This document shows, one piece after another, positions 6,266 through 39,650 of a stretch of DNA of 64,000 nt. The notes beneath the pieces are model-generated. The model saw only the letters and a program-made list of their open reading frames with translations, did no database searches and was not told the DNA's origin. The DNA lies in NCBI GenBank assembly GCA_019054805.1, contig JAHQIY010000012.1:2728001-2792000 (forward strand). The letters run 5' to 3'. Within the stretch, counting starts at the first letter, position 1, and each line of letters starts with the position of its first letter. Made by a program: the position numbers and the translations under genes. Source of the stretch: Brachionus manjavacas. Its lineage: Eukaryota > Rotifera > Eurotatoria > Ploima > Brachionidae.

Positions 6266-6733
6266 AAACAGTTAAAACAATCAAAAAAAGCAAAATTCAA
6301 CTATGAGTTTACTAAAATACGTAAAACATGCAGAGAAACATTAAAAAAAAAGACTCTATAACCAATGCCTAACAAATACAAGACGAATTTTAAATATTTT
6401 TAGTATTTTTAAATTTTTAATAATATAATACTAGTTTCGTATTTTTGTTCAATAAACAATTAAAAAATACACATTAATTATCTTTGTTTATTTCCAATAA
6501 AAACATAGTAGTTTTTAATTAAATTTAAAAAATTTTTTAATAAAAATATTGATTACTTTTAGTATAAACGTTTGATAAAGTTCCTGAAAGACATTATTGT
6601 ATAATAATAATAATTGCACATTTTCAAAAATTATTGTGTTTTAACTAAAAGTGAATATTTTTTTGTACAAGAGTAAAAAACATTTGTTAAGAGATAAAGA
6701 TGACTTTATTGATTGCTAGTTTTTAGATTTAAT

Positions 6734-7732
6734 TTAGAAAGATCCGAATGATGAAAATTGTTCCGAAGAGCCAAGACTTGAGAATGAAGGCAATGGAGCT
6801 GAGAGTTGAGCAGCACCAAATGAAGCTGAACCACCACATGGTGATGGACATGGAGCTGGGCATGGTGGTGGTGGTGGTGGGCAAGTTTGTACTGGAACTG
6901 GGGTTGGGATTGGAACAGGTTGTGGGCATGGAACTGGAACTGGCACTGGTACTGGCTGTGGGCATGGTTGAGGAACAGGCTGTGCTACTGGTACTGGGCA
7001 TGGTTGAGGAACTGGACATGGCAATCGAACTGGATATGGTTGTGGAGTTCTAACTGGAATTGGTACTTCGACTGGTACTGGGACTGGTCTTGGAATTCTA
7101 ATTCTGATTGGGATACGAACTGGGCATGGCACTGGAACTGGTTGTGGTACTGGGTATGGTTGTGGAACTGGTACTCTTACTGGAATTCTAATTGGAGTTG
7201 GAACAGCAACTGGTTGTGGTACTTGATATGGCAATGGTACTTGAACACGATTTATTTGTGGAACTGGTTGTGGAATTTGAACCTGTTGTGGAACTGGAGT
7301 TGGCACTGGGATTTTGAATGGAGTTGGAACTGGAACTCTTTGAGGATATGGAACTGAGACTGGACATGGTCTTGGAACTGGAACTGGAACCGGTCTTGGG
7401 CATGGAGTTGGTACTGGAACCTATTTTTTATTTAAATTAAATAACCTTTTTGAACTGGACCCTTTTTTTTTTTAGATTATTAAATTTTTTCTTACAGTAA
7501 TGTACTGTGGTACTCGTACTGGAGTTGGTACTGGGGTTGGAACAGGAACTGGAATTCTGCATGGAGGTGGTGGGCAAGGAGCTGGACATGGTGGTGGAGG
7601 TGGTGGTGGACATGAGCCACATGATGAGTCGAGCGATGGGAAAGATAAAGGCAATGAAGCTGGTAATTGAGCAGCAGCCAAAGGAGCTGAAAATTCAGCG
7701 CCACCAAACAAAGAAGAATCAAATGAAGCCAT
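6734..7732 (-). CDS. PVP-A copy 1, proline-valine repeat structural protein
   Basis: Two exons: 7732-7496 and 7420-6734, with a 75 bp GT-AG intron, giving 307 residues. The ATG at 7732 (context GTTAACAATGG) starts MASFDSSLFGGAEFSAP. There is no hydrophobic signal peptide or membrane segment. Residues about 1-42 are Ser/Ala/Leu/Phe-rich. Next come a Cys-polyPro block, about 200 residues of alternating Pro with Val/Ile/Thr/Gln (PVPVPQPYPVPQ-like), a second Cys-polyPro block (CPPPPPPCPAPCPSPC) and a 42-residue Ser/Phe/Gly tail ending SSFGSF. AATAAA follows the stop (6709-6704, minus strand). A TATAAATA box lies 78 bp upstream at 7810-7803. The gene is divergent to PVP-B. Function is unknown; a cross-linked structural protein is inferred from composition. 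Long frames on the opposite strand are low-complexity shadows. Confidence 0.85.
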
Positions 7733-8290
7733 TGTTAACGTTATTTTACCGATTTATTAATAAAATAGAAAGTGAATATTCCCAAATGGTTTTTCATGTT
7801 GATATTTATATGTAAGTTGTTCATTAACAACAACATTTTATCAATTTATTTGATCTTTAATTTGAATACATATGAATATATCTTGAACAATGTCGATGCT
7901 TGGGTATATTAGTTATTTGGTAACAATCGAATCGATCATTTGCATAAATGATCATCATCAATTTAAAAGAATTTTTTACTTTCAATAAAACAAACAAAGA
8001 AAATTTAAGTTTTATTTCATATAATTGTGGACATATGATAAATAAACAACATCAAAAAGGATTAATGTAACACTAGAGAACGCTCTTTACTTAAATATTC
8101 TTATATTTGGAATTTTTTGATCAATATTAACCATGATTTTGTTTAAATCGATTTCTGATCAAAATTTTTGATTGTTAGATCGAATTTATTCAAGCAGAAA
8201 CCTTAAAAACCCATATAAATTAAAGTAAAATTTAAAAAAATAAAACATCGGATTTTTATTCATCTAATCTAAAAAAAGAAACAATTCATA
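7733..8290. promoter_or_regulatory. Bidirectional promoter between PVP-A and PVP-B, copy 1
   Basis: The 558 bp between two divergent ATGs holds a TATAAATA on the minus strand (7810-7803) and a TATAAAT on the plus strand (8214-8220). They lie 78 and 77 bp upstream of their start codons. The middle is AT-rich with several GATCA/TGATC motifs. The same arrangement is kept in the three other cassettes. Confidence 0.65.
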
Positions 8291-9285
8291 ATGTTTGGTA
8301 AATAAAAACGACTTACTCTTGAGGGCACTTGATTAAATTGTTATTTTATTTATTTCAGGTTCATTCGACTCCTCATCATTCGGCTCTTCATCATTTGGTT
8401 CATCATGTGGATCATGTGAAACTTCATGTTGTCCACCTCCACCACCACCACCAGCACCAATAAGAGTGCCAGTACCTGTACCAGTTCCACAACCATATCC
8501 AGTTCCAGTTAGAATCCCACGACATGTACCATATCCAATCCCAACTCCAGTTCCACAACCAGTGCCATTTACAATCAGAGTACCAGTGCCAAGACCTGTT
8601 CCAGTACCAACTCCAGTACCTGTGCCACAACCATGCCCAGTACCTGTTCCATTCAAAGTACCAGTAAGAGTACCAGTTCCAGTTCAACTCACTTATCATG
8701 AGCCAGTGCCACAAGCCCAAACTGTTCAAATACCAATTAGAGTACCAGTTCCTCAAGCATGCCCAGTTCCAACCCCAGTTCCAACTCCAGTACCGGTAAG
8801 AGTACCAATCAGAATCCCTGTTCCACAACCATACCCAGTCATTGAACACGTAGATGTTCCATACAGAGTTCCAGTACCAAAACTATACCCAGGTACATTA
8901 AACTTTTTTGTTTCATTCAACTCAACAATTCAAATAATTATTTGACATTTTGTTTTTAGTCCCAGAAAGATACCCAGTTCCAGTAAGAGTACCAGTTCCA
9001 CACAAATACCCAGTACCACAACCAGTACCAGTTCCATTTAAAATTCCAACTCCAGTCCCAGTACCACAACGAGTTCCAATTCCAACACCAGTCCCTCAAC
9101 GAGTACCAGTTCCAGTACCAGTCCCACCACCATGTCCACCACCATGCCCAGCTCCATGCCCAGCTCCATGTCCTTCACCATGTGGTGGTTCAGCTTCATT
9201 TGGTGCTGCTCAACTCTCAGCTCCATTGCCTTCATTCTCAAGTCTTGGCTCTTCGGAACAATTTTCATCATTCGGATCTTTCTAA
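8291..9285 (+). CDS. PVP-B copy 1, proline-valine repeat structural protein with 7-nt first exon
   Basis: Three exons are inferred: 8291-8297 (ATGTTTG), 8359-8892 and 8960-9285, with introns of 61 and 67 bp, all GT-AG and in phase, giving 288 residues. The joined start reads MFGSFDSSSFGSSSFG, which mirrors the MASFDSS start of PVP-A and the shared SSFGSF end. A CCPPPPPPAP block follows, then about 195 residues of PV/IP repeats with a few Tyr, Arg and His. Next come a Cys-polyPro block (CPPPCPAPCPAPCPSPC) and a tail identical to that of PVP-A. There is no signal peptide. AATAAA is at 9309-9314. The tiny exon is inferred from splice sites and frame and was not seen as RNA. Function is unknown; a structural role is inferred. 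Confidence 0.82.
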
Positions 9286-9704
9286 ATTAAATCTAAAAAC
9301 TAGCAATCAATAAAGTAATCTTTATCTCTTAACACATATTTTTCTTTCCAATTATTTATTATTTCGATTTTAATTTGATTAAGAAAAATATCTAAAATAA
9401 ATTAATCCACTATTTTTCCTTTTTTTATTATTTTTTTAATATTCAGCAAAAACTTAATTCATAAAATATTCTAACTTTTTTAATTTTCTGTTTCTGTAAA
9501 AAGTGGTTTTGTTAAATTTAGCTCAAAATAATTAAACAGAACAGAACAATTTGACGTCTAAAAGGCTTCTTAGATTTTCAAATAAAGGTTTTTAACTCAT
9601 TCTAAAAATGCAACATATTGCTACATACATAGTTGAATCAAATGTCAAATCTGCAAAATCTCTGTAAATTGCACCGCGTCTGAAAATGTTGAAATTTAAT
9701 TTCT

Positions 9705-10463
9705 TATTAATTTGCTGAGTTTACATGGCTTTGACAGTTAATGCAAAAATGTGTATTGAGTTTGTTTTTAAATTCATTCTTGGATTTTGAATTTGCAACT
9801 TCAACTGGTAATATTTTCAACTCGTTAACCACTCGATTTGTCAGGAAACAATCTCTATTTTTAATTCTTGTCAATTGTTTGGTCTGTCTTCCTGGTTCTC
9901 TTCGAATTCTTCCAGCTGGGCCATCAGATGAGAGTGCATGACTCTTGATGTGTGGAGTCTGTAATTAAATATAACTTAGACCGTTCATTATTTTGAAGGT
10001 TTCGATTAGGTCTCCACGTTCACGTCTTGCCTTAAGTGTGGTTAGTCTCAATCTTGTAAGTCTTTCTTCATAATCTAAATTTTTTTAAGCTAATTACTAA
10101 AATAATAATTTTGTAGCCTTTCTTTCAACTTGTTCAAGAATTTTTGAGTTTCGTTTGGTAAAGGGGCTCCAGAATGCAACTGCATACTCAAGATGCTTGG
10201 ATAATTGTTAAGTTGTTTTAAATCAATTCCGTTAATAGTTTTATTTTTGAAGAAGATAAATTTGCATTTGTCTTCGTTAAATTTCAGTTGCCAGTCAATC
10301 GACCATTTAGCAATCCTGTCAATGTCCGTTTGCATCTGTTCAACATCAAGACGGTTTCTAATGATTTTTATCATCTGCAAACAGTTTGATTAAGCTTGTT
10401 GCGGCGTTTGGTATGCCGTTTATAAAAATAACGAAAAGAAGAGGGCCAAGTACAGATCCTTGA
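9705..10463 (-). pseudogene. Inverted 3' piece of the palindrome I LINE
   Basis: This is the inverted copy of 14952-15712: the end of a non-LTR reverse transcriptase, from just before its FADD box to the stop and beyond. It is cut at 10463, in the middle of the SVLGP-LLF region, because the palindrome arm ends there. The frame is broken by several shifts in both copies, so it cannot be active. Confidence 0.8.
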
Positions 10464-10940
10464 AATCAGGACAAACACGTCCAATTTAAGGTTTATAAAA
10501 TTGACGTCTCTAGGTATTCTTAACTCTTTGTTTAGGTTAAGTATTAAAAATTCCTTTTCTATTCTTTTCCAAAAAAACCATTTTCCTCAAAATGTGCAAA
10601 ATCGCATTTACAATATTTTTATGGAATTTTGCTGTCACTTGTGAAACACATGCGTTCTCATATAATAATTCGGAGTCAATGTATGAGAAATTAATATCTC
10701 ATTTCATATCGACATGAACAAAATTTTTCCAATTCGGAAAGATAACAATCGTCACAATTCCAATGGAGACAGTGATTTTAATCATCACTTTGATCTTGGT
10801 GTATTTGACAATCCGTCTTATAAAAGGGAGGCCTCACACGCCGACTTCCATCCAAGCAAGTCTACGTGAAAAGCTTCGTGCAAAAATGCTAAAAATTAGA
10901 TTTTAAATCAAATTTTTTCTTATAATTACCCAAAAAAACC
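10464..10940. other. Spacer start of palindrome I, upstream of gypsy remnant
   Basis: No intact gene is present. A short frame from 10591 begins with a hydrophobic leader-like stretch, and another from 10764 has a hydrophobic segment followed by a basic tail. Both are under 60 codons and unassigned. They may be leftovers of the adjoining retroelement. Confidence 0.4.
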
Positions 10941-13340
10941 AAACAATCACAGACAAGACATTAGTCTCAGCCCAAATCAGTCAACGCGAAAGCAGAATAA
11001 ATTTGAATATAAAGGCAACAGTGAGCCTCTTCACGTAATTAACGCTGTGAACTTAAGAAAAGTCCTATACGAGAAAAATCAGTGATAGGTGTGGCAATAT
11101 TCAATAATACAATGGTTAATTACCTATGTGATAGTGGAGCAGATAGGACAATTATCAATACAAAAACGTTCAATCTTATAAAAAGGCGCCTGGAACAGAA
11201 CTCGAAATTCATTCAGGTAGCGAGCTGTTCTCATGCTCAGGTCCTAATAAAATTCTTGGCAAAGTGAGGCTCTCACGCTGGATTGTTTTAAGAGAAGAAA
11301 TCCTTACAAATGAGGAAATCTTGGTGACTGTTATATTTCAAATAATGATTGTCTTTTAGGTAGAGATTTGATTAACAAGCTGAAGCACCTTGAGCCTAGA
11401 TTTGAAGACATAAAGACAATGGTAAAATCAATGTTAGTAAGAAGAATTTTCTAACATCTTATTACTGATGAAGTAAGAAGAATTTTTAGAAAAGAAATGC
11501 GTGAAAAACATTTTAAAACAACCTTGAAATTAGTCACTTACCACAATATGAAAGAGGATGAAGTCGGAAGTATTACAAAATTTGATTTTGAAGTACACCC
11601 CGAAAATAAATTCCAAAAAGGGGAGGGTCTCGTTCCAAAAATCAAATTTGGTGGTACAGTGATTGATATTTAAATCGATGCGGAATTGAAAGAAACTAGC
11701 CCGTCAAAAAATGATCTCCATAGGGAGCCTGTTAAAAACTAAAATTTAAGAAGTTTCGGCAAAATCAGTCTTGGATTTAAAACCAGCCAATAATTCAGAT
11801 GTTGCATTTGAAATAGAGTTTCAAGACCCAAACCAGAAGCCAATCAAATGTAAATGTAGACCACTACCGTGGAATCTGAAAGAGAATGAAAACACTGAAC
11901 TGGATATACAACTGAAGGCTGGGACTATTCGACCAAGTAGAAGTCAATGGTGTTTTCCTATTCAAAAGGTAGACAAGGTTGACGGTTTATTTGAATCACA
12001 GTGGACTACAAGCCACTAAAAAATCTGATAACTATCCAATTCCGTCCATAAAGGATCGTTATGCCAAATTAGCAGATTCACACACTGTTACTAAAATCGA
12101 TATGAAAGCAACATACCACCAAACCCCTGTTCATCCGAACTCAATTCAGTTCACTGCTTTCATCTGTGAATTTGATCTGTTTGAGTATCTTTCAATGCCA
12201 ATCGGCATCATAACTGCCACTGCATGGTTTCAACGTTTTATCGAAGCATGTTTACAACGATTTTGAATCGATAGTTCTCTAAGAGTTTATTTTGATGAAT
12301 TAATTATATTTACAAACAGTGAAAAGAATGGGATCAATTATAATCTTGACACTGAAATGGCTCTTCTGGATACACTGAAAAAGAGATCATTAAAGGTTAC
12401 ATGCGAAAAAAGTATCCCAGTTGAATTTGCAATTCAGTTGTTGGGAAATGTGATATTCAAAGGAAAGATTAAACCAGACCCAAATAGGTCTTTTGGCTTC
12501 GCGAAAAACGGAAAACCAGGAGCAATTAACCAAATTCAGTCTTGGCTGGGCGATCCAATTTTATACCATCGATTCATTTATCAGTACTAGCCAGACATCT
12601 TTATGAGTTAATGAGTTTAAAAAGTGTACCTAATTGTACCTCAATGAATCCGGTGATTATTTTGAGAGACTAAAAGGCGTCCTAAGCAGTGAACTTGAGT
12701 TGGCTTTACCCAATTTCGAGCGTCAAATGATTTTAACAACAGACGCATGTGACTATGGTTACGGTGACGTCCACGAACAAGAATTTGACGGGAAAAGTAC
12801 GTTTTTCACGACAGTTTGGTGGCAAGTATTGAAGAAATTTACAATTAAGTCTCATCATCTTCCGATAGTGAGAATGAACAAAGAAAATGATGCTACACAG
12901 ACTACAAACAGCAGCTCTGATTCGGAAAGTGCAAAAAACGCCGATAGAATAGCTCTGAACCAAAATTCCTCTATCGAGAATGAATTGAGAGCCTGAAAGA
13001 AGAACAAGAAAAGGACGAAGATGTCCAGAGGATAAAAGGACTTATCCTGGAAAATGGGGCTGAGAAGCCTAAAATCTCACTTTTTGAATGCCCAACACAT
13101 CATATGCTATACAAACAGTACGACAACTAAACGCTTGTTGATGGTTTTCAATATCGTCATAGTGAAGATAGGAATGGTTTCAAAACAACACAACTCGTTT
13201 TACCAAAACAAATAGTCGAGTAAATTGTCAACCAGGTTAAAAGCACAATTAACAATGGTTATCTAGGAAAATAAAGGAAATGTCAAAAATAATTGATAGA
13301 TTTTACAGACCATTTCTTAAAGACGAACAGCCCTAAAAGC
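10941..13340 (+). pseudogene. Ty3/gypsy-type retrotransposon pol remnant
   Basis: Domains occur in order on the plus strand but in shifting frames. An aspartic protease with CDSGADRT is near 11127-11150. Reverse transcriptase runs about 11771-12290, with TKIDMKATYHQ and the FEYLSMPIGI box. The catalytic box at about 12283 reads YFDE instead of Y-x-D-D. A connection segment follows, then RNase H with LTTDACDYGYG at 12733-12765. The start of integrase is at about 13000-13330. Many stops and shifts separate them, and no LTRs were found at either side. It is an old, dead copy lying wholly in the spacer of palindrome I and not duplicated by it. Confidence 0.85.
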
Positions 13341-13990
13341 AAAAGAGAAAGTTCACCAAAAATTAAAAATAATCCAAGGTGGAAGGCTATGGAAAATTGT
13401 AATGAGCCTTAACAAAGTGTCACGGACATGATTAATAAGGACCCTATGTTCACAGGAGATATGTCTTCAAATGACATTGATTCAGAATTCGGATTAGATA
13501 GAAAAATCAAATCATTAAATCTAGTGAGGTTCTTCGATGATCTAGTCGTCAGTCGAAGCCTCCTGATCGTCTAGAATATTAAAGTATCTATTAATATATT
13601 ATTTTAAATGAAATAAATAAATAAGTGAAACAAAAAAAATGCAATAAATCAAATGAAAATCAAGCAAATGGCAAAAACCAACCCGATCTTTGATATATAC
13701 GTCCGAAATAAAACGAAGAACAAGGAAAGCAGAAGGAAAACGGCGGAGTCTTTAGAGATCTAAATATAAGGAGATCATCCGGCAGGGTCTGGAGAACCGA
13801 CTGGGACTTAAAGATCACCTTGTTGCAGTTGCCAATGTAAATGTGTAAAGCACATGACGGAATGACCTACATCGCTACCTGTCGAATGGAAAGAACAGAA
13901 CGACACGGCGAAGCGGTCGAATTTATTAACAGCCTAACGTTCGAAGTCCGAAACTCCTGGGCAAGCTAAACTTAAAAAGGTTAAATAATC
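13341..13990. other. Junction of gypsy and LINE debris
   Basis: No recognisable domain. The stretch 13720-13960 is less AT-rich than its surroundings and reads as broken frames in all phases. It may be the decayed 5' part of the LINE that follows. Confidence 0.4.
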
Positions 13991-15712
13991 GGACTAAAGA
14001 ACCTAACAAAGAGAAAATATAAACTCTATTTAAAAATTAAATCCCCATATTACTAACAACACTCAAAAATGAGTACAAAGAAACCTGTTAAGAGTAAAAA
14101 CGAGCGATCAAAGCAACGCGCTTATTTTACGAACAAAAAATTATCAGAGAAAGTAAGATAATTCTTAAATTAAAATGTGGTTGTATAAATCATCAAAGAA
14201 AACACAAAGATAAAAAGATCACTTACTAACCTAAATAGCGATCTTATTCTAGAAAAAAAATCATCACTAACCTGTTTAATGATCAATTTCAAAGATCGTT
14301 CATAATGTTTATGGTTCAGAACTACCTAATTTCGAATCGATTTGCCAAGATATCTTCGCAATTGATACCGAGTTATTATCGCACTCAAATATAATCAAAA
14401 ATATTGGTAGATTGGATAAACGGCAAGCGAATGGTAAATAAAAACTGTGCCGAAAGCTTCTCTAAATTTTTGGAATCAATTTTCGAATAATCATTCACAA
14501 CCGGCAAGCTCCCAATTGAATGGAAGGAAGCTTAAATAACTCCAATTTTTAAATTATCCGAGCTGAGGAACTAAAGACCAATATCAATTACCTCTGTCAC
14601 TTGTAATCATGAAGGGAATCGTTAGAGACGCAATTATGGCTCATCTAAATAGAAACCATCTGATTGCCAATCAACAAAATGGTTTTGTTAAAAGAAAATC
14701 ATGTTTGACAAATCACCTCGAAACAATTGACATAATAACAGAAGCCTCAAACCGAGGATTTGCCTCTGCAGTTGTCTTTTTTTTTTTCTAAAGCATTTGA
14801 CAAATTATCACACCGAGCATTAATAAAAAAAGTACAGGCTTACGGATTCAGCGATAAGATTAAACACTGGCTCACCAATATTTTAAATAGCATGTTGTAT
14901 TGGGCGAAAATGTCTCAGCGTTGAGGGAAGTCTTAAGCGGTGTACTGTTCTCAAGGATCTGTACTTGGCCCTCTTCTTTTCGTTATTTTTATAAACGGCA
15001 TACCAAACGCCGCAACAAGCTTAATCAAACTTTTTGCAGATGATAAAAATCATTAGAAACCGTCTTGATGTTGAACAGATGCAAACGGACATTGACAGGA
15101 TTGCTAAATGGTCGATTGACTGGCAACTGAAATTTAACGAAGACAAATGCAAATTTATCTTCTTCAAAAATAAAACTATTAACGGAATTGATTTAAAACA
15201 ACTTAACAATTATCCAAGCATCTTGAGTATGCAGTTGCATTCTGGAGCCCCTTTACCAAACGAAACTCAAAAATTCTTGAACAAGTTGAAAGAAAGGCTA
15301 CAAAATTATTATTTTAGTAATTAGCTTAAAAAAATTTAGATTATGAAGAAAGACTTACAAGATTGAGACTAACCACACTTAAGGCAAGACGTGAACGTGG
15401 AGACCTAATCGAAACCTTCAAAATAATGAACGGTCTAAGTTATATTTAATTACAGACTCCACACATCAAGAGTCATGCACTCTCATCTGATGGCCCAGCT
15501 GGAAGAATTCGAAGAGAACCAGGAAGACAGACCAAACAATTGACAAGAATTAAAAATAGAGATTGTTTCCTGACAAATCGAGTGGTTAACGAGTTGAAAA
15601 TATTACCAGTTGAAGTTGCAAATTCAAAATCCAAGAATGAATTTAAAAACAAACTCAATACACATTTTTGCATTAACTGTCAAAGCCATGTAAACTCAGC
15701 AAATTAATAAGA
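13991..15712 (+). pseudogene. LINE reverse transcriptase, broken, spanning spacer and right arm
   Basis: In changing frames the plus strand reads TGKLPIEWKEA (about 14500), IVRDAIMAHLNRNHLIANQQ (14615), KSCLTNHLETIDIITEASNR (14696) and KAFDKLSHRALI (about 14793). GSVLGPLLFVIFINGIP follows at about 14955, then LIKLFADD with the catalytic Asp pair at about 15021. The thumb and C-terminus end near 15710. The homopolymer run at 14778 marks one shift. The fragment at 57577-57996 belongs to the same family. The right arm of palindrome I begins inside this element at 14952. Confidence 0.85.
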
Positions 15713-16128
15713 AATTAAATTTCAACATTTTCAGACGCGGTGCAATTTACAGAGATTTTGCAGATTTGACATTTGATTCAACTATGTATGTAGCAATATG
15801 TTGCATTTTTAGAATGAGTTAAAAACCTTTATTTGAAAATCTAAGAAGCCTTTTAGACGTCAAATTGTTCTGTTCTGTTTAATTATTTTGAGCTAAATTT
15901 AACAAAACCACTTTTTACAGAAACAGAAAATTAAAAAAGTTAGAATATTTTATGAATTAAGTTTTTGCTGAATATTAAAAAAATAATAAAAAAAGGAAAA
16001 ATAGTGGATTAATTTATTTTAGATATTTTTCTTAATCAAATTAAAATCGAAATAATAAATAATTGGAAAGAAAAATATGTGTTAAGAGATAAAGATTACT
16101 TTATTGATTGCTAGTTTTTAGATTTAAT

Positions 16129-17122
16129 TTAGAAAGATCCGAATGATGAAAATTGTTCCGAAGAGCCAAGACTTGAGAATGAAGGCAATGGAGCTGAGAG
16201 TTGAGCAGCACCAAATGAAGCTGAACCACCACATGGTGAAGGACATGGAGCTGGGCATGGAGCTGGGCATGGTGGTGGACATGGTGGTGGGACTGGTACT
16301 GGAACTGGTACTCGTTGAGGGACTGGTGTTGGAATTGGAACTCGTTGTGGTACTGGGACTGGAGTTGGAATTTTAAATGGAACTGGTACTGGTTGTGGTA
16401 CTGGGTATTTGTGTGGAACTGGTACTCTTACTGGAACTGGGTATCTTTCTGGGACTAAAAACAAAATGTCAAATAATTATTTGAATTGTTGAGTTGAATG
16501 AAACAAAAAGTTTAATGTACCTGGGTATAGTTTTGGTACTGGAACTCTGTATGGAACATCTACGTGTTCAATGACTGGGTATGGTTGTGGAACAGGGATT
16601 CTGATTGGTACTCTTACCGGTACTGGAGTTGGAACTGGGGTTGGAACTGGGCATGCTTGAGGAACTGGTACTCTAATTGGTATTTGAACAGTTTGGGCTT
16701 GTGGCACTGGCTCATGATAAGTGAGTTGAACTGGAACTGGTACTCTTACTGGTACTTTGAATGGAACAGGTACTGGGCATGGTTGTGGCACAGGTACTGG
16801 AGTTGGTACTGGAACAGGTCTTGGCACTGGTACTCTGATTGTAAATGGCACTGGTTGTGGAACTGGAGTTGGGATTGGATATGGTACATGTCGTGGGATT
16901 CTAACTGGAACTGGATATGGTTGTGGAACTGGTACAGGTACTGGCACTCTTATTGGTGCTGGTGGTGGTGGTGGAGGTGGACAACATGAAGTTTCACATG
17001 ATCCACATGATGAACCAAATGATGAAGAGCCGAATGATGAGGAGTCGAATGAACCTGAAATAAATAAAATAACAATTTAATCAAGTGCCCTCAAGAGTAA
17101 GTCGTTTTTATTTACCAAACAT
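16129..17122 (-). CDS. PVP-B copy 2
   Basis: Exons 17122-17116, 17054-16521 and 16454-16129 on the minus strand give 288 residues, the same protein as copy 1. The second intron is 66 bp instead of 67 (one T fewer in its T-run). The start exon ATGTTTG, the PV repeat body, the Cys-polyPro block and the SSFGSF end are all intact. It is head-to-head with PVP-A copy 2. The lack of any disabling change, despite decayed LINE sequence in the same arm, suggests selection or recent homogenisation (inference). Confidence 0.82.
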
Positions 17123-22130: not shown

Positions 22131-22479
22131 AAACGATCAAAAAATGATAATCGATTTTTTTTAATTTTTTTAATCTTAAATTTATTTTTATTAATTCAAT
22201 AAATTTTATATATTTAATAAAATATTTTTGTTTTATTAGCTTTCAATTTTATGTTAAAATCTATGAATCATTCCATATAAATATATTAAAGAAGAAATCC
22301 TTTTAAAACATTTTATAAGTGTTCTGTCAAAAACAAATTCAAGAAAAAAAAAATATATAAAAAAAGAAAAAAAAAACTGTTTTTGTCAGAATCTTAACTT
22401 AGCTCAAGTTCAGCTAAAAGCCGCAACCTTTCTAGCAGTTTATGCTCTGAGGGAAAAGGTAATCAAATTATTTTGTAAA

Positions 22480-29917: not shown

Positions 29918-30293
29918 GCTCATTTTCAAGTTTGTGATCAATTTTTGATGCTCAAAATGATCAAATCAAATTTTAACCGTGAAATGAATTGTTATATTTC
30001 CAATGAATTGGTAAATAGGTACATTTTTGGATATAACATACTTTGTGAAATAGCAAGGTAGACTATGCAAAATCAAAATGCACATTGCAGAGTGGACTAC
30101 ATCTAAATGATGCAATTTTAAGTAAGTTGTATTTTTCAGGATTTGCAGAGAATACCTTTAGATTTCACAAAGTTATTGAGTCCAAAAATGTACCTATACT
30201 TGTATTATATTAAATATTAACATTTTATTTAATAATTTAAAATTTATTTGATCATTTTGAACATCAAAAATTGATCATAAACTTCAAAATGCT
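29918..30293. mobile_element. MITE, about 375 bp, overlapping the palindrome II boundary
   Basis: 29920-29973 (CAAGTTTGTGATCAATTTTT, ATGATCAAATCAAATTTT) is the inverted match of 30240-30292 (AAAATTTATTTGATCATTTT, AAAATTGATCATAAACTT). Inner parts also pair (TAGGTACATTTTTGG at 30016 with CCAAAAATGTACCTA at 30182). The left arm of palindrome II begins inside its right TIR, at about 30267. Confidence 0.75.
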
Positions 30294-30407
30294 ACATTTT
30301 CAAATTATTGGGTTTTAACTAATAGTGAATATTTTTTTGTACAAGAGTAAAAAACATTTGTTAAGAGATAAAGATGACTTTATTGATTGCTAGTTTTTAG
30401 ATTTAAT

Positions 30408-31405
30408 TTAGAAAGATCCGAATGATGAAAATTGTTCCGAAGAGCCAAGACTTGAGAATGAAGGCAATGGAGCTGAGAGTTGAGCAGCACCAAATGAAGC
30501 TGAACCACCACATGGTGATGGACATGGAGCTGGGCATGGTGGTGGTGGTGGTGGGCAAGTTTGTACTGGAACTGGGGTTGGGATTGGAACAGGTTGTGGG
30601 CATGGAACTGGAACTGGCACTGGTACTGGCTGTGGGCATGGTTGAGGAACAGGCTGTGCTACTGGTACTGGGCATGGTTGAGGAACTGGACATGGCAATC
30701 GAACTGGATATGGTTGTGGAGTTCTAACTGGAATTGGTACTTCGACTGGTACTGGGACTGGTCTTGGAATTCTAATTCTGATTGGGATACGAACTGGGCA
30801 TGGCACTGGAACTGGTTGTGGTACTGGGTATGGTTGTGGAACTGGTACTCTTACTGGAATTCTAATTGGAGTTGGAACAGCAACTGGTTGTGGTACTTGA
30901 TATGGCAATGGTACTTGAACACGATTTATTTGTGGAACTGGTTGTGGAATTTGAACCTGTTGTGGAACTGGAGTTGGCACTGGGATTTTGAATGGAGTTG
31001 GAACTGGAACTCTTTGAGGATATGGAACTGAGACTGGACATGGTCTTGGAACTGGAACTGGAACCGGTCTTGGGCATGGAGTTGGTACTGGAACCTATTT
31101 TTTATTTAAATTAAATAACCTTTTTGAACTGGACCCTTTTTTTTTTAGATTATTAAATTTTTTCTTACAGTAATGTACTGTGGTACTCGTACTGGAGTTG
31201 GTACTGGGGTTGGAACAGGAACTGGAATTCTGCATGGAGGTGGTGGGCAAGGAGCTGGACATGGTGGTGGAGGTGGTGGTGGACATGAGCCACATGATGA
31301 GTCGAGCGATGGGAAAGATAAAGGCAATGAAGCTGGTAATTGAGCAGCAGCCAAAGGAGCTGAAAATTCAGCGCCACCAAACAAAGAAGAATCAAATGAA
31401 GCCAT
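30408..31405 (-). CDS. PVP-A copy 3
   Basis: Exons 31405-31169 and 31094-30408 with a 74 bp intron give 307 residues. The protein equals copies 1 and 2 in the visible regions. Intron length differs only in its A/T run. AATAAA lies just beyond the stop. It is paired head-to-head with PVP-B copy 3. Composition is Pro/Val-rich with Cys blocks at both ends and no signal peptide. Confidence 0.85.
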
Positions 31406-31962
31406 TGTTAACGTTATTTTACCGATTTATTAATAAAATAGAAAGTGAATATTCTCAAATGGTTTTTCATGTTGATATTTATGTGTAAGTTGTTCATTAA
31501 CAACAACAATTTATCAATTTATTTGATCTTTAATTTGAATACATAGGAATATATCTTGAACAATGTCGATGCTTGGGTATATTAGTTATTTGGTAACAAT
31601 CGAATCGATCATTTGCATAAATGATCATCATCAATTTAAAAGAATTTTTTACTTTCAATAAAACAAACAAAGAAAATTTAAGTTTTATTTCATATAATTG
31701 TGGACATATGATAAATAAACAACATCAAAAAAGATTAATGTAACACTAGAGAACGCTCTTTACTTAAATATTCTTATATTTGGAATTTTTTGATCAATAT
31801 TAACCATGATTTTGTTTAAATCGATTTCTGATCAAAATTTTTGATAGTTAGATCGAGTTTATTCAAGCAGAAACCTTAAAAACCCATATAAATTAAAGTA
31901 AAATTTAAAAAAATAAAACATCGGATTTTTATTCATCTAATCTAAAAAAGAAACAATTCATA
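31406..31962. promoter_or_regulatory. Bidirectional promoter, cassette copy 3
   Basis: Same layout as 7733-8290, with a few substitutions, some of which are shared with the other arm of palindrome II (for example GATAGTTAGATCGAG at 31843). Confidence 0.6.
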
Positions 31963-32944
31963 ATGTTTGGTAAATAAAAAGACTGACTCTTGAGGGCACT
32001 TGATTAAATTGTTATTTTATTTATTTCAGGTTCATTCGACTCCTCATCATTCGGCTCCTCATCATTTGGTTCATCATGTGGATCATGTGAAACTTCATGT
32101 TGTCCACCTCCACCACCACCACCAGCACCAATAAGAGTGCCAGTACCTGTACCAGTTCCACAACCATATCCAGTTCCAGTTAGAATCCCACGACATGTAC
32201 CATATCCAATCCCAACTCCAGTTCCACAACCAGTGCCATTTACAATCAGAGTACCAGTGCCAAGACCTGTTCCAGTACCAACTCCAGTACCTGTGCCACA
32301 ACCATGCCCAGTACCTGTTCCATTCAAAGTACCAGTAAGAGTACCAGTTCCAGTTCAACTCACTTATCATGAGCCAGTGCCACAAGCCCAAACTGTTCAA
32401 ATTCCAATTAGAGTACCAGTTCCTCAAGCATGCCCAGTTCCAACCCCAGTTCCAACTCCAGTACCGGTAAGAGTACCAATAAGAATCCCTGTTCCACAAC
32501 CATACCCAGTCATTGAACACGTAGATGTTCCATACAGAGTTCCAGTACCAAAACTATACCCAGGTACATTAAACTTTTTTGTTTCATTCAACTCAACAAT
32601 TCAAATAATTATTTGACATTTTGTTTTTAGTCCCAGAAAGATACCCAGTTCCAGTAAGAGTACCAGTTCCACACAAATACCCAGTACCACAACCAGTACC
32701 AGTTCCATTTAAAATTCCAACCCCAGTCCCAGTACCACAACGAGTTCCAATTCCAACACCAGTCCCTCAACGAGTACCAGTTCCAGTACCAGTCCCACCA
32801 CCATGTCCACCACCATGCCCAGCTCCATGTCCTTCACCATGTGGTGGTTCAGCTTCATTTGGTGCTGCTCAACTCTCAGCTCCATTGCCTTCATTCTCAA
32901 GTCTTGGCTCTTCGGAACAATTTTCATCATTCGGATCTTTCTAA
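31963..32944 (+). CDS. PVP-B copy 3, short form
   Basis: Exons 31963-31969, 32030-32563 and 32631-32944 give 284 residues. It lacks one four-residue Cys-Pro unit of the C-terminal block, reading CPPPCPAPCPSPC where copies 1, 2 and 4 have CPPPCPAPCPAPCPSPC. The frame is kept because the change is 12 bp. Otherwise it carries the same start, PV repeats and Ser/Phe/Gly tail. It is the shortest of the eight genes. Confidence 0.82.
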
Positions 32945-33733
32945 ATTAAATCTAAAAACTAGCAATCAATAAAGTCATCTTTATCTCTTAACACATATTT
33001 TTCTTTCCAATTATTTATTATTTCGATTTTAATTTGATTAAGAAAAATATCTAAAATAAATTAATCCACTATTTTTCCTTTTTTTATTATTTTTTAATAT
33101 TCAGCAAAAACTTAATTCATAAAATATTCTAACTTTTTTTAATTTTCTGTTTCTGTAAAAAGTGGTTTTGTTAAATTTAGCTCAAAATAATTAAACAGAA
33201 CAGAACAATTTGACGTCTAAAAGGCTTCTTAGATTTTCAAATAAAGGTTTTTAACTCATTCTAAAAATGCAACATATTGCTACATACATAGTTGAATCAA
33301 ATGTCAAATCTGCAAAATCTCTGTAAATTGCACCGCGTCTGAAAATGTTGAAATTTAATTTCTTATTAATTTGCTGAGTTTACAAGGCTTTGACAGTTAA
33401 TTCTAAAATGTGTAATAAAATGTAATGATATTAAGATCTTTGATTAAGTCGATTGTATAAAATCAGTTAAGCAACGGGAGCAATAAACTACTGAGGATAG
33501 TTGTTTAATGGTTGATGCGGGACGGCGGATTCTACACGGTTTGTACCTAAATCTTTAATTTTTGTTTTGCTGTATAAAATATTTTTTTACTTTTAATCTG
33601 TTAGACCATATGACTACATGATTGCTGACAGCTGAGTGTTTTTCGCCACAGTTCAACATTTCTATCCAGATTAAAGTGCGTAATTTCAATTTCTGGACCA
33701 AATTGCTTTTAATGTAATGGTGAAGGTTAAACA

Positions 33734-34836
33734 TTGCTTGATGTCCTGTTAAGAACCAAAGCTTGCAAAAACTGTAATCAAAAAGGACATTTGACTCAGA
33801 AATGCTCTTTAGCTGAGGAGCTAAAATCGATTGAACGAAAAAAATCGATAATAGTGAACTCGCAAGTCAATAAGAAGAAAAAGAAGGGATTAAAGGATCA
33901 ACCTATAAAGTCATCAAAATACCTTGTTACCAATGTTCAAACAAGTAAGCAAATCAAGGGCGTTGCAGAATCCGACGATTCACAAAGAGCAGAATCGAAA
34001 AAACCAAAAGATCAAACTAATGAAAAGGAAAACAATGAGCTTGATTACGTATTTCTATACAATAATATTGGACACAATTCAAATGAAAGAACACCGGTTT
34101 TATACAAAAACAGGCCAACTCAAGCATTCAATGAAAAAATATTTATCAAGTCAACTTTCCTCTTAGAACAGGTTAGTTATTACACACTGGAATTGTCTGT
34201 ACTTACCTAGTAGGGTTCATCTCTTAGGAAATTTTTCAGTTAAAAAATGTCACGACATTGTTTTCCTCAATGAATTAAAGATTGATTTGAGTGAGGCAAA
34301 TATTATCTTGATTTTTACAATTATCAGTTCATAACAAAACCACAACAAGTATAGAGGAGGAGTAGCCTTTTTAATTAAAGGATGAATTTAATTAATACAG
34401 GATTTTTCTTATGAGAAATTCAATTCCGAACCTCTTTGAGTAAGACTAAATTCACGAAAAAACAATGAATTAGTTGTATTTAATCTTTATAATCCACCCA
34501 ATGTGCTTCTGAACTTTGAGCTTTTTAAAACAGATAATAAAAAATGTAGAAACTACATCTTAGGTGGGGATCTAAACGCTAGAACAAAGCAAACAGGCTG
34601 CATAGGAGAGAATGAAAACGATAAAATGTTGGAAAAAATAATCAATGAATTAGACTTTTCATGAGTCAATTATAAGCGCCCTACTTTCAATATTTAAAAA
34701 AGAATTACTTTGAAATTCTTGATCTTTTTTTAGTTTCATCTTCATTAATTTACAAAATTACCGACCTAAATGTCTTAAATAGTCGAGACAAGGCAAGTGA
34801 CCATTTCCCGATCGAAGCATCAATTTCTATGGGCTA
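33734..34836 (+). pseudogene. LINE ORF1 zinc knuckle and broken endonuclease
   Basis: 33734-34210 is open (158 codons), beginning with a CX2CX4HX4C zinc knuckle (CKNCNQKGHLTQKC, 33764-33805) followed by a Lys-rich charged stretch. From about 34180 an AP-type endonuclease is visible in broken frames: KYRGGVAFLIKG (about 34350), NNELVVFNLYNPPN, then NYILGGDLNARTKQTGCIG (about 34555) and SDHFPIEASISM (about 34797). GGDLNAR and SDH are catalytic motifs of the family. At least four stops are present. It lies in the palindrome II spacer. Confidence 0.75.
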
Positions 34837-35330
34837 ATGATCCAATTTGGATCATTAAAATTACACTTTTTAATTTATTTAGTAATCCTTGATTAATAAA
34901 ATACTGTTCCTTAAGTGATAGTTCCTTTCGACTTCAACAAAATCGGACATGTTTAAAAAATTTTATATATTTTGACATGCGATAATCAGCTTTGATAAAA
35001 AAAGAAAATCTTTTCTTTCAACATAATGACTTTTAATGAAAAAATAAAAATCGTTTAAAAGATATTAAAATTATTACATTTTCATAATTCATTATCACTT
35101 TATTAGAATTTTCTTATTTTTGTAAAGAAATATTCTAAGACTCGAGTCGTTTAACCACACTTTGTGCGACTCAGACTCATGTCTAGGACTCCGAGTCCGA
35201 GTCTCATCAAAAAAATATCTAAGATTCAAACTCGAGTCTCCTTAATAAGTCTCGAGTCGGACTCAAATTCCTAAAGACTCGAGTCTCATTTTTAGAGTCC
35301 CCATCTCTTGATCTTCTAACCTGACCGAAT
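34837..35330. repeat. Palindrome-rich insertion in the LINE
   Basis: It begins with the near-perfect palindrome AATGATCCAATTTGGATCATT (34838-34858, centre T; written here as two halves AATGATCCAA and TTGGATCATT). At 35135-35300 there are many copies of GACTCGAGTC and GACTCCGAGTC-like words in both orientations, giving a fold-back structure. It separates the endonuclease and reverse transcriptase parts of the LINE. Confidence 0.6.
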
Positions 35331-35399
35331 TCATAATTTAAAGTTAATAAACTAACCTTGAAATTCATTAATTGAAATCATAGAACCTTTTAATTTAAT

Positions 35400-35795
35400 T
35401 TATCTCTTAAAGAAAGTAAGGTCCTGAAAGCGTGGAAAACTTCGAACATTCAAAAAAGGCTTCTAATTTACTAAATCCTTTAAATAATAGACCAATTAGT
35501 ATAAAGACTTGTTTAGGAAAGTTTTTGAACAAAAAGTTTATTCAAGATTATACAATTTTTCGGAACAAATTTCACTCCTTATCCACGAGCAATCTCAATT
35601 TAGGAAACACCGGCAAACATCAGATAATCTATTCTTTTTAATTCAAAAACTTGTGGAATCATTTAATAAAAAAAAAGAGCTTGTGGCCTTTTTTGATATT
35701 TCTAAAGCCTTTGATAGGGTTTGGCAAGAAGATTTACATTTTAAATTGAATCCACCTAATTACTTGACTGACTGGTGTTCTTTAACGCCAAATTG
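35400..35795 (+). pseudogene. LINE reverse transcriptase fragment
   Basis: Two overlapping frames (35432-35641 and 35509-35796) together read NPLNNRPISIKTCLGK, KVFEQKVYSRLYNF, HRQTSDNLFFLIQKLVESF and LVAFFDISKAFDRVWQEDLHFKL. D-I-S-K-A-F-D-R-V-W is motif A of non-LTR reverse transcriptases with its catalytic Asp. The rest of the enzyme is missing after 35795, and a frameshift separates the two parts. Confidence 0.75.
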
Positions 35796-35796
35796 A

Positions 35797-36241
35797 GACC
35801 TTAGCGGTAGGACTATTTGTTTCTATTGGTATCTTTCTAATTAAAAAGAAAAAAGTATTTACGGTTCAATTTTTTTTAACTTGAGCCAAAGGCCCGCCTT
35901 CAGGCGCCCATCACTGTTCTTTTTCAACTTTTTGTCTTCTTTCAAACACAATTTAGAGCTGAGCTCTAGGATTTTTCCTTTGGACTGTACAACCGTTCAA
36001 ATGCTAAATTTCCGGAATTTACGATATGATAGGAATTTAAAAAAAAAGTTCTGATCAACCTACCAATATAATAAAAGTTATATTAATTTATCGTGAAATA
36101 TACAGCAAGCTAGTTGAAGAAAATAAGATAAAAATTGGTCATTCCTTTATTTAAATATCATCTTGGAAATTCGACATTCAACCTGACCACTGTTACCACT
36201 GCCAAAAATGTGGTTATTTTATGACTAACTGTCCAAATACG
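35797..36241. other. End of palindrome II spacer with a degenerate zinc knuckle
   Basis: It is mostly non-coding. At 36196-36240 the plus strand reads DHCYHCQKCGYFMTNCP, a CX2CX4(Y)X4C knuckle in which the expected His is Tyr, probably from another LINE ORF1. It ends at the arm boundary. Confidence 0.5.
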
Positions 36242-36941
36242 AAAAACACTCAGCTGTCAGCAATCATGTAGTCATATGGTCTAACAGATTAAAAGTAAAA
36301 AAATATTTTATACAGCAAAACAAAAATTAAAGATTTAGGTACAAACCGTATAGAATCCGCCGTCCCGCATAAACCATTAAACAACTATCCTCAGTAGTTT
36401 ATTGCTCCCGTTGCTTAACTGATTTTATACAATCGACTTAATCAAAGATCTTAATATCATTACATTTTATTACACATTTTAGAATTAACTGTCAAAGCCT
36501 TGTAAACTCAGCAAATTAATAAGAAATTAAATTTCAACATTTTCAGACGCGGTGCAATTTACAGAGATTTTGCAGATTTGACATTTGATTCAACTATGTA
36601 TGTAGCAATATGTTGCATTTTTAGAATGAGTTAAAAACCTTTATTTGAAAATCTAAGAAGCCTTTTAGACGTCAAATTGTTCTGTTCTGTTTAATTATTT
36701 TGAGCTAAATTTAACAAAACCACTTTTTACAGAAACAGAAAATTAAAAAAAGTTAGAATATTTTATGAATTAAGTTTTTGCTGAATATTAAAAAAATAAT
36801 AAAAAAAGGAAAAATAGTGGATTAATTTATTTTAGATATTTTTCTTAATCAAATTAAAATCGAAATAATAAATAATTGGAAAGAAAAATATGTGTTAAGA
36901 GATAAAGATGACTTTATTGATTGCTAGTTTTTAGATTTAAT

Positions 36942-37936
36942 TTAGAAAGATCCGAATGATGAAAATTGTTCCGAAGAGCCAAGACTTGAGAATGAAGGCA
37001 ATGGAGCTGAGAGTTGAGCAGCACCAAATGAAGCTGAACCACCACATGGTGAAGGACATGGAGCTGGGCATGGAGCTGGGCATGGTGGTGGACATGGTGG
37101 TGGGACTGGTACTGGAACTGGTACTCGTTGAGGGACTGGTGTTGGAATTGGAACTCGTTGTGGTACTGGGACTGGAGTTGGAATTTTAAATGGAACTGGT
37201 ACTGGTTGTGGTACTGGGTATTTGTGTGGAACTGGTACTCTTACTGGAACTGGGTATCTTTCTGGGACTAAAAACAAAATGTCAAATAATTATTTGAATT
37301 GTTGAGTTGAATGAAACAAAAAAGTTTAATGTACCTGGGTATAGTTTTGGTACTGGAACTCTGTATGGAACATCTACGTGTTCAATGACTGGGTATGGTT
37401 GTGGAACAGGGATTCTTATTGGTACTCTTACCGGTACTGGAGTTGGAACTGGGGTTGGAACTGGGCATGCTTGAGGAACTGGTACTCTAATTGGAATTTG
37501 AACAGTTTGGGCTTGTGGCACTGGCTCATGATAAGTGAGTTGAACTGGAACTGGTACTCTTACTGGTACTTTGAATGGAACAGGTACTGGGCATGGTTGT
37601 GGCACAGGTACTGGAGTTGGTACTGGAACAGGTCTTGGCACTGGTACTCTGATTGTAAATGGCACTGGTTGTGGAACTGGAGTTGGGATTGGATATGGTA
37701 CATGTCGTGGGATTCTAACTGGAACTGGATATGGTTGTGGAACTGGTACAGGTACTGGCACTCTTATTGGTGCTGGTGGTGGTGGTGGAGGTGGACAACA
37801 TGAAGTTTCACATGATCCACATGATGAACCAAATGATGAGGAGCCGAATGATGAGGAGTCGAATGAACCTGAAATAAATAAAATAACAATTTAATCAAGT
37901 GCCCTCAAGAGTCAGTCTTTTTTATTTACCAAACAT
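36942..37936 (-). CDS. PVP-B copy 4
   Basis: Exons 37936-37930, 37868-37335 and 37267-36942 give 288 residues, with introns of 61 and 67 bp. It has the full CPAPCPAPCPSPC block, unlike its arm partner copy 3, but shares with copy 3 base substitutions that separate palindrome II from palindrome I (for example the codon for Ile in VPIRIPV: ATA here, ATC in palindrome I). Confidence 0.82.
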
Positions 37937-38494
37937 TATGAATTGTTTCTTTTTTTAGATTAGATGAATAAAAATCCGATGTTTTATTTTTTTAAATTTT
38001 ACTTTAATTTATATGGGTTTTTAAGGTTTCTGCTTGAATAAACTCGATCTAACTATCAAAAATTTTGATCAGAAATCGATTTAAACAAAATCATGGTTAA
38101 TATTGATCAAAAAATTCCAAATATAAGAATATTTAAGTAAAGAGCGTTCTCTAGTGTTACATTAATCTTTTTTGATGTTGTTTATTTATCATATGTCCAC
38201 AATTATATGAAATAAAACTTAAATTTTCTTTGTTTGTTTTATTGAAAGTAAAAAATTCTTTTAAATTGATGATGATCATTTATGCAAATGATCGATTCGA
38301 TTGTTACCAAATAACTAATATACCCAAGCATCGACATTGTTCAAGATATATTCATATGTATTCAAATTAAAGATCAAATAAATTGATAAATTGTTGTTGT
38401 TAATGAACAACTTACATATAAATATCAACATGAAAAACCATTTGGGAATATTCACTTTCTATTTTATTAATAAATCGGTAAAATAACGTTAACA
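37937..38494. promoter_or_regulatory. Bidirectional promoter, cassette copy 4
   Basis: Inverted equivalent of 31406-31962, with both TATA boxes kept. Confidence 0.6.
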
Positions 38495-39506
38495 ATGGCT
38501 TCATTTGATTCTTCTTTGTTTGGTGGCGCTGAATTTTCAGCTCCTTTGGCTGCTGCTCAATTACCAGCTTCATTGCCTTTATCTTTCCCATCGCTCGACT
38601 CATCATGTGGCTCATGTCCACCACCACCTCCACCACCATGTCCAGCTCCTTGCCCACCACCTCCATGCAGAATTCCAGTTCCTGTTCCAACCCCAGTACC
38701 AACTCCAGTACGAGTACCACAGTACATTACTGTAAGAAAAAATTTAATAATCTAAAAAAAAAAAAGGGTCCAGTTCAAAAAGGTTATTTAATTTAAATAA
38801 AAAATAGGTTCCAGTACCAACTCCATGCCCAAGACCGGTTCCAGTTCCAGTTCCAAGACCATGTCCAGTCTCAGTTCCATATCCTCAAAGAGTTCCAGTT
38901 CCAACTCCATTCAAAATCCCAGTGCCAACTCCAGTTCCACAACAGGTTCAAATTCCACAACCAGTTCCACAAATAAATCGTGTTCAAGTACCATTGCCAT
39001 ATCAAGTACCACAACCAGTTGCTGTTCCAACTCCAATTAGAATTCCAGTAAGAGTACCAGTTCCACAACCATACCCAGTACCACAACCAGTTCCAGTGCC
39101 ATGCCCAGTTCGTATCCCAATCAGAATTAGAATTCCAAGACCAGTCCCAGTACCAGTCGAAGTACCAATTCCAGTTAGAACTCCACAACCATATCCAGTT
39201 CGATTGCCATGTCCAGTTCCTCAACCATGCCCAGTACCAGTAGCACAGCCTGTTCCTCAACCATGCCCACAGCCAGTACCAGTGCCAGTTCCAGTTCCAT
39301 GCCCACAACCTGTTCCAATCCCAACCCCAGTTCCAGTACAAACTTGCCCACCACCACCACCACCATGTCCAGCTCCATGTCCAGCTCCATGTCCATCACC
39401 ATGTGGTGGTTCAGCTTCATTTGGTGCTGCTCAACTCTCAGCTCCATTGCCTTCATTCTCAAGTCTTGGCTCTTCGGAACAATTTTCATCATTCGGATCT
39501 TTCTAA
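38495..39506 (+). CDS. PVP-A copy 4, long form
   Basis: Exons 38495-38731 and 38808-39506 with a 76 bp intron give 311 residues. Four residues longer than the other A copies, because the C-terminal Cys block reads CPAPCPAPCPSPC in place of CPAPCPSPC. This is the same kind of 12 bp unit gain/loss seen in PVP-B. The start, repeats, tail and AATAAA are as in copy 1. No disabling change. Confidence 0.85.
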
Positions 39507-39650
39507 ATTAAATCTAAAAACTAGCAATCAATAAAGTCATCTTTATCTCTTAACAAATGTTTTTTACTCTTGTACAAAAAAATATTCACTTTTAGTTAAA
39601 ACCCAATAATTTGAAAATGTAGCATTTTGAAGTTTATGATCAATTTTTTA

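Follow-up and report, generated by a model that had tools for sequence, protein, structure and literature searches.

We analyzed a 64,000-nucleotide stretch of the genome of the rotifer Brachionus manjavacas (assembly GCA_019054805.1, contig JAHQIY010000012.1, positions 2,728,001 to 2,792,000 of the forward strand), referred to here as the window, which carries four copies of a cassette made up of two divergently oriented genes, PVP-A and PVP-B. Self-comparison of the window by blastn placed the copies in two inverted repeats. The arms of inverted repeat 1 (6266-10473 versus 14941-19144) were 99.74% alike over 4209 columns, with 5 mismatches, and those of inverted repeat 2 (30266-33645 versus 36240-39648) were 98.94% alike over 3409 columns, with 7 mismatches. 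A cassette of about 3.14 kb was common to all four arms and was 98.7 to 99.0% alike between the two inverted repeats. This bore out a preliminary description of the same DNA, which had reported four head-to-head cassettes in two palindromes. The spacers, 4.5 kb long in repeat 1 and 2.6 kb in repeat 2, appeared unrelated when compared. The arms and spacers lie as follows.

6266 to 10473, plus strand: left arm of inverted repeat 1, with cassette c1 and part of a long interspersed nuclear element (LINE)-like repeat (blastn self-comparison)
14941 to 19144, minus strand: right arm of inverted repeat 1, with cassette c2 (self-comparison)
30266 to 33645, plus strand: left arm of inverted repeat 2, with cassette c3 (self-comparison)
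36240 to 39648, minus strand: right arm of inverted repeat 2, with cassette c4 (self-comparison)
10474 to 14940, no strand: spacer 1, with gypsy-type pol pieces broken by stops and the remainder of the LINE-like repeat (open reading frame [ORF] pieces, Pfam)
33646 to 36239, no strand: spacer 2, with no similarity to spacer 1 found

Gene models were built at splice-like sites, without RNA. They gave PVP-A two exons and a protein of 307 amino acids (311 in c4) and PVP-B three exons, the first of only 7 bp, and a protein of 288 amino acids (284 in c3).

6734 to 7732, minus strand: PVP-A of c1, exons 7496-7732 and 6734-7420, 307 amino acids (spliced model)
8291 to 9285, plus strand: PVP-B of c1, exons 8291-8297, 8359-8892, and 8960-9285, 288 amino acids (spliced model)
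16129 to 17122, minus strand: PVP-B of c2, 288 amino acids (spliced model)
17680 to 18676, plus strand: PVP-A of c2, 307 amino acids (spliced model)
30408 to 31405, minus strand: PVP-A of c3, 307 amino acids (spliced model)
31963 to 32944, plus strand: PVP-B of c3, 284 amino acids, 12 bp shorter (spliced model)
36942 to 37936, minus strand: PVP-B of c4, 288 amino acids (spliced model)
38495 to 39506, plus strand: PVP-A of c4, 311 amino acids, 12 bp longer (spliced model)

Every spliced model was open, so the earlier statement that all eight genes are intact holds; we make it for the window only, the stretch for which spliced models were built. Stops in some tblastn rows were considered as a sign of gene decay and rejected as such, since in the window these rows cross introns of the spliced models. 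The 12-bp length changes noted earlier proved real and in frame, one in A of c4 and one in B of c3. All five coding single-nucleotide polymorphism (SNP) columns among c1 to c4 were synonymous, and the proteins differed only through 4-residue insertions or deletions.

Across the four copies we counted 27 SNP columns. Twenty of them split c1 and c2 from c3 and c4, seven were singletons, and no other two-two split was present. The arms of repeat 1 were 100% complementary across 8905-10473. Taken alone, the window could be accounted for by two recent inverted duplications, which would suffice and which fit its data equally well; the case for gene conversion made below is argued from the wider family.

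A search with cassette DNA, the counts of which are lower bounds, covered the 114-Mb, 61-contig genome, in which the window lies on contig C12. We compared 22 cassettes in seven loci, six of them multi-copy.

Window cluster, contig C12: 4 cassettes
K311, C12:3.115-3.150 Mb: 4 cassettes, including copy 3 with a shortened A (counted among the 22)
K290, C12:2.90-2.94 Mb: 4 cassettes
K198, C12:1.98-2.01 Mb: 3 cassettes
K207, C12:2.07-2.10 Mb: 4 cassettes
C1 two-cassette locus, C1:11.50-11.51 Mb: 2 cassettes
C1 single-cassette locus, C1:11862256 (11.862 Mb): 1 cassette

Inverted cassette copies, 98.3 to 99.8% alike, were found in all six multi-copy clusters. The arrangement in the window, with four cassettes as first described and two repeats whose spacers are unrelated, is thus one of six such clusters and not unique. 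Inverted pieces reached 8.5 kb (K311), and K290 included a 10-kb direct copy, some of its neighboring non-cassette pieces being only 96.8% alike. The PVP-A gene of K311 copy 3 (C12:3136572-3136874) had a large internal in-frame deletion that left an open frame of 101 amino acids made up of the two ends only.

Other PVP-type matches lay on C1, C3, C12, and C15, with a weak one on C20, and some of these were examined. A PVP subfamily on C15 (2235824-2243649) formed a 3.47-kb inverted pair, 98.5% alike, with one gene per arm and a spacer of about 0.9 kb. On C3 (6399501-6404500) we found a direct tandem array with a unit of about 1.8 kb, 99.3% alike, encoding Cys-Pro-rich proteins of 98 amino acids, the ends of which resemble PVP ends; eight short C3 matches recurred at the array spacing. 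The C15 pair lies about 55 kb from a contig end, K311 about 0.2 Mb from that of C12, and the C1 loci about 0.24 to 0.6 Mb.

Mirror-image copies may also be produced when mirrored or haplotype copies are wrongly joined during assembly. There is a rotifer precedent, as excerpts of two papers relate: the palindromes of the 2013 Adineta vaga assembly were not observed in A. ricciae, which came with a discussion of errors in scaffolding (PMC5916493, PMC7953838). Here, the inverted pieces are short (3 to 8.5 kb), the six compared stretches contain zero N, and the copies carry private in-frame changes. Moreover, the arrangement recurs at six clusters, the surroundings differ, and the window includes a TAF11 segment that is single copy in the genome. 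The last three points reduce the worry over an assembly mirror, which the preliminary description had called unlikely, and we regard an artefact of this kind as very improbable.

The genome also offered a direct comparison of orientations, with 9 of the 15 neighboring cassette pairs inverted and 6 direct. Selection might keep the inverted layout because paired arms can mend one another, an idea put forward for ampliconic genes of the Y chromosome, and several observations fit this: inverted arms at least 98 to 99% alike and carrying intact genes are present, the window retains eight open genes, and the closest partners are inverted in the window, in K198, in C1, and at the edges of K207. The count of inverted neighbors is, however, near the half expected by chance and gives no over-representation of the inverted layout. 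Direct neighbors were equally alike (copies 1 and 2 shared 99.1% in K290 and 99.0% in K311), as were the units of the direct Cys-Pro array on C3 (99.3%). Because of the orientation counts, we dropped selection on the layout as a main claim and consider it quite improbable. Of the two causes first proposed for the amplification, conversion-based protection therefore stands in part: homogenization by conversion is supported, mainly outside the window, and palindromic protection is not. The amplification of a whole cassette with its genes kept open was itself confirmed, and we infer, as the other proposed cause, a need for dosage of the gene pair.

The case for conversion begins with the likeness of cassettes within and between clusters. 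Trees of A exon 2 and of B exon 2 placed each multi-copy cluster as one group on one side of a branch. Support was starred, or the rows were identical, the one exception being the window, which had 89/88 in the A tree. The exon trees required 6 label changes for 7 groups, a value matched in 0 of 200 shuffles. B exon 2 was identical in all four K290 copies and, over 518 aligned columns, in all three K198 copies. Divergence from the window copy amounted to 4 to 21% in aligned exon parts and, for four clusters, to 15 to 46% in intergenic DNA and 31 to 44% in introns. Since introns and intergenic DNA diverge so strongly between clusters, the low variation within clusters is not a matter of constraint. 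Likeness within clusters thus exceeded likeness between them beyond what constraint explains, as expected under concerted evolution.

We then compared SNPs in intron-plus-intergenic columns (the core) with those in flanks trimmed by 50 bp. In K290, 0 of 725 core columns and 11 of 739 flank columns were variable (p=0.0009); the corresponding counts were 0/724 and 6/658 in K198 (p=0.012) and, for the three full copies of K311, 2/793 and 4/308 (p=0.055). Pooled over K290, K198, K311, and the window, the contrast gave p=0.002 (p=2e-7 for the untrimmed pool). K207 had no usable flank, and its flank count of 177/368 was dropped because the flanks are unrelated.

Recombination would also leave sites that conflict over which copies belong together. 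The four copies of K207 showed two-two splits of three kinds, at 11, 2, and 1 sites, and 10 of the 11 majority sites lay near the edges. K290 had no two-two SNP site among its four copies. K311 was considered as a mosaic and rejected, its sites being either private to single copies or, in the case of its two two-two sites, in agreement, so among the window, K207, K290, and K311 only K207 counts as conflicting.

A second signal, and the most telling one, came from within the cassette: at their 3' ends, including part of the 3' untranslated region (UTR), A and B match each other in inverted orientation.

6676 to 6883, minus strand: 3' end of A (C-terminal segment and 3' UTR), near-identical to that of B (95.3% over 211 columns)
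9133 to 9343, plus strand: 3' end of B, inverted partner of 6676-6883 (self-comparison)

We tested these ends in one cassette per cluster, with gaps counted (in the window, about 127 bp of coding sequence plus 59 bp of UTR). Likeness of the A and B ends inside one cassette was 97.3% for the window, 98.9% for K311, and 100% for K290; comparing these ends between the three clusters gave 66 to 84%. When every cassette of the three clusters was included, A and B matched at 92.6 to 99.1% over 211 to 270 columns, and there were additional A/B matches of 60 columns in the window (91.7%) and 69 columns in K290 (88 to 90%). In a tree of the 3' ends, A and B fell together within K290 (100/99) and within K311 (95/99). 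In all, matching A/B 3' ends were seen in three of the four clusters compared. Exchange between A and B genes can explain them; whole-cassette duplication alone cannot.

We consider it probable, with due reserve, that the PVP clusters evolve in concert through gene conversion that follows repeated duplication, often inverted, the gain being a high-output, cross-linked scaffold protein. Whole PVP-A/PVP-B cassettes would have been duplicated repeatedly, often in inverted orientation. Ectopic gene conversion would then keep the cassettes of one cluster alike and, inside a cassette, would also act between its two genes at their 3' ends, with exchange between clusters rarer, if it occurs at all. 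High output of the scaffold protein would be the advantage, the likeliest site being the lorica or the intracytoplasmic lamina. We infer that the homogenizing is mostly due to conversion and not to fresh duplication.

Several observations weigh against this account. The arm ends in the window are abrupt, likeness falling from near 100% to about 40% inside roughly 100 to 200 bp, and the window has no conflicting two-two site. Its SNPs run in the opposite direction to the edge/core contrast, without significance, with 8 in 756 core columns and 2 in 489 flank columns (p=0.33). The K207 conflicts concern 3 of 14 sites, some of which may have mutated more than once; in K311, the two two-two sites agree, and private sites are spread unevenly. 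With gap-free coding columns, likeness of the 3' ends between clusters rises to 83 to 91%. In K198, the A/B match spans 116 to 126 columns (90 to 92%) and falls to 70.6% in the 3'-end test, and no A/B match was found in K207 or at either C1 locus. The A tree and the B tree differ in the sister clusters they place together among the window, K290, and K311, and the window and K290 are 96.2% alike in A exon 2 and 65.4% in intergenic DNA. Given these conflicts between trees and between exon and intergenic likeness, exchange between clusters may have taken place as well. The window and K311 are 93.5% alike in A exon 2 and 85.1% in intergenic DNA, so A exon 2 and intergenic similarities among the three clusters point to different closest clusters; the mismatch may reflect constraint or old between-cluster exchange.

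Some of these points would be expected under birth and death alone, in which each cluster expanded freshly and independently, often inverted, and without lasting conversion, its uniformity reflecting youth. Abrupt arm ends and unrelated spacers suit such a history, as do the LINE-like repeat that both arms of repeat 1 carry, truncated where the arm stops, the tree-like sites of the window (20 of 20 two-two sites agree), the lack of conflict in K311, and the single-cassette locus at C1:11862256. Six independent recent bursts would be needed, however, and three observations would be left unexplained: the conflicting sites of K207, the absence of SNPs from the introns and intergenic DNA of K290 and K198 next to flanks that have diverged, and the matching of A and B at their 3' ends in three clusters. 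We therefore think birth and death alone rather unlikely and retain conversion after duplication as the preferred reading.

The DNA between the two genes holds a putative core promoter motif for PVP-B, AGCAGAAAC-N11-ATATAAA.

7733 to 8290, no strand: 558-bp region between the divergent genes of c1, with a TATA-like box toward either gene as judged by eye (alignment to four other clusters)
8193 to 8219, plus strand: putative PVP-B core promoter motif of c1 (exact genome matches)
17193 to 17219, minus strand: motif of c2 (genome pattern search)
31866 to 31892, plus strand: motif of c3 (genome pattern search)
38008 to 38034, minus strand: motif of c4 (genome pattern search)

Genome-wide, the pattern had 15 exact matches, compared with 3 for a backwards control. 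All 15 lay just upstream of PVP-B (four each in the window, K290, and K311 and three in K198). K207 had the motif with N13 in 4 of 4 copies, and at the C1 loci it was not found in the form searched. The spacer letters of the motif were the same within each cluster and different between clusters.

A and B consist of 32 to 34% Pro, 15 to 18% Val, and 4 to 5% Cys, with Pro at every second residue. Their predicted masses and isoelectric points are 32.1 kDa and 9.0 for A and 30.5 kDa and 9.4 for B. Their N termini carry a short Ser/Phe-containing segment and CGSC, and their C termini a Cys-Pro block and a Ser-Phe-Gly tail. The Pro codons of c1 (6734-9285) are mostly CCA (92/105 in A and 82/93 in B). 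Neither protein matched any Pfam family at E values up to 0.1. Peak 10-residue hydropathy in the first 40 residues was 1.27 for A and 0.33 for B, 0.43 to 0.71 for rotifer matches, and 1.06 to 3.18 for five VPV matches, a range that A overlaps. By hydropathy alone, with no signal-peptide predictor run, A and B have no clear signal peptide.

Two protein searches, in which scoring was confined to the 7986 and 7993 candidates with the most words in common, returned one convincing relative within the genus, B. calyciflorus P0015 (E=1.3e-27 with A), in which a PVP-A-like stretch is fused to retroelement-like sequence. Many low-complexity VPV matches in insects and metagenome sources were not counted as homologues, and matches in Adineta and Rotaria were set aside, covering only 19% and 16% of the query. 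Structural families such as articulin- or alveolin-like VPV proteins were also considered: there was no Pfam match, the presence of an articulin model in Pfam being unchecked.

A and B are Pro/Cys-rich repeat proteins that may form an abundant scaffold inside the cell, which would suit genes that are multi-copy and uniform, a conserved promoter motif, repeats rich in Pro and Cys, and the lack of a clear signal peptide. In the portions of the literature cited, the intracytoplasmic lamina is located inside the rotifer epidermis (PMC13403294) and the lorica is called scleroprotein, citing Bender and Kleinow 1988 (PMC10246822). A role in the lorica or the lamina is for these reasons our best guess, offered tentatively. 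If the PVP proteins are a scaffold of the syncytial epidermis, their genes would be candidates for those that build the lorica or intracytoplasmic lamina of rotifers; among the matches listed in our literature search, mostly titles and the starts of abstracts, no genes were named for either structure. A more speculative idea, which we think doubtful, is that A and B pair up as subunits of the lamina. Conversion at the 3' ends would then hold mainly the shared terminal segment (Cys/Pro and Ser-Phe-Gly) identical and the cross-linking ends matched while the middle repeats diverge, and the divergent, mirrored layout would permit exchange of the ends.

Outside the genes, the DNA of the window is AT-rich and contains broken retroelement pieces. 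In spacer 1, Pfam matched RVT_1 (E=1e-7) on 11973-12263 and RT_RNaseH_2 (E=7e-8) on 12634-12993. Of the LINE and gypsy sequence described earlier around the genes, the stop-broken gypsy-type pieces are therefore corroborated by reverse transcriptase and RNase H matches on two of them; the dispersed repeat in spacer 1 and the arms is LINE-like by eye, and two tested pieces of it gave no Pfam match.

9745 to 10473, minus strand: 3' part of the dispersed LINE-like repeat in the left arm of repeat 1, start approximate (genome copies)

The best other genome copies of this repeat begin at query positions 401-405 and are at most 90% alike. It is present, from about 9745, in both arms of repeat 1, and homology between repeats 1 and 2 ends at 9755, about at its junction. 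The LINE-like repeat may have entered repeat 1 once the two repeats had separated; alternatively, the founder of repeat 2 was cut at this point.

The TAF11 gene (27878-28633) has an uninterrupted frame of 251 amino acids and was single copy in the genome search. Its product is 92% identical to that of Brachionus plicatilis and 60% to that of B. calyciflorus and matches Pfam TAFII28 (E=2.7e-39); the gene is usable as a species marker, and these identities point to a host within the B. plicatilis complex. The stretch at 20400-22400, with 98% pieces at C1:6860400-6862131, shorter 95 to 96% copies elsewhere, and a 261-amino-acid ORF without a Pfam match, is probably part of a mobile element. Scans of the window with Rfam (gathering threshold) and for transfer RNAs gave no matches.

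Six clusters in one genome hold inverted and direct neighbors side by side, so the effect of inversion on homogenization is directly measurable. Removal of a cluster is practical as well, because editing by clustered regularly interspaced short palindromic repeats (CRISPR) exists for B. manjavacas (PMC10395877, cited in part). Among the matches listed from the open literature, which leaves subscription papers mostly outside, we found nothing on the PVP gene family or its mirrored clusters and no multi-cluster exchange between the genes of divergent pairs. What is already known is that inverted modules can undergo conversion, that conversion occurs in structural gene clusters, and that the mmr-b genes evolve in concert.

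The mmr-b mate recognition genes belong to the same species complex, that of B. plicatilis, and evolve in concert; there are 1 to 4 gene copies, each with 2 to 9 near-identical repeats. They differ in that the repeats are intragenic, and the genome layout of the copies was then not yet known, according to the sections cited (PMC3495898). High-cysteine keratin-associated protein (KRTAP) genes (PMC4180150) and spider MaSp silk genes (PMC9779670) are, in the excerpts used, clustered structural genes homogenized by conversion. Their proteins are unrelated to PVP, and the available text of PMC4180150 uses neither "head-to-head" nor "palindrom". Sex-chromosome palindromes with ampliconic genes (PMC3403216, in part) likewise combine inverted arms more than 99% alike with gene conversion (PMC8981503, as listed), whereas the PVP arms are a few kilobases long and lie on contigs C12 and C1 (C15 for the subfamily). 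Among 17 sequences read, VPV-repeat proteins of insects and metagenome sources share repeats of the VPVPxPYPV type with PVP, but these are low-coverage repeat matches, and insect P0005 lacks the CGSC start and the Ser-Phe-Gly tail.

The closest precedent is provided by the hsp16 genes of Caenorhabditis elegans, where each module is a divergent gene pair. In PMC3966223, in the portion cited, a study of a module duplicated as an inverted repeat (3.8 kb) is named among those with evidence for gene conversion; the hsp16 case concerns one locus, heat-shock proteins, and a 416-bp spacer. The PVP family differs in its six multi-copy clusters, its larger spacers, and the matching 3' ends of its paired genes.

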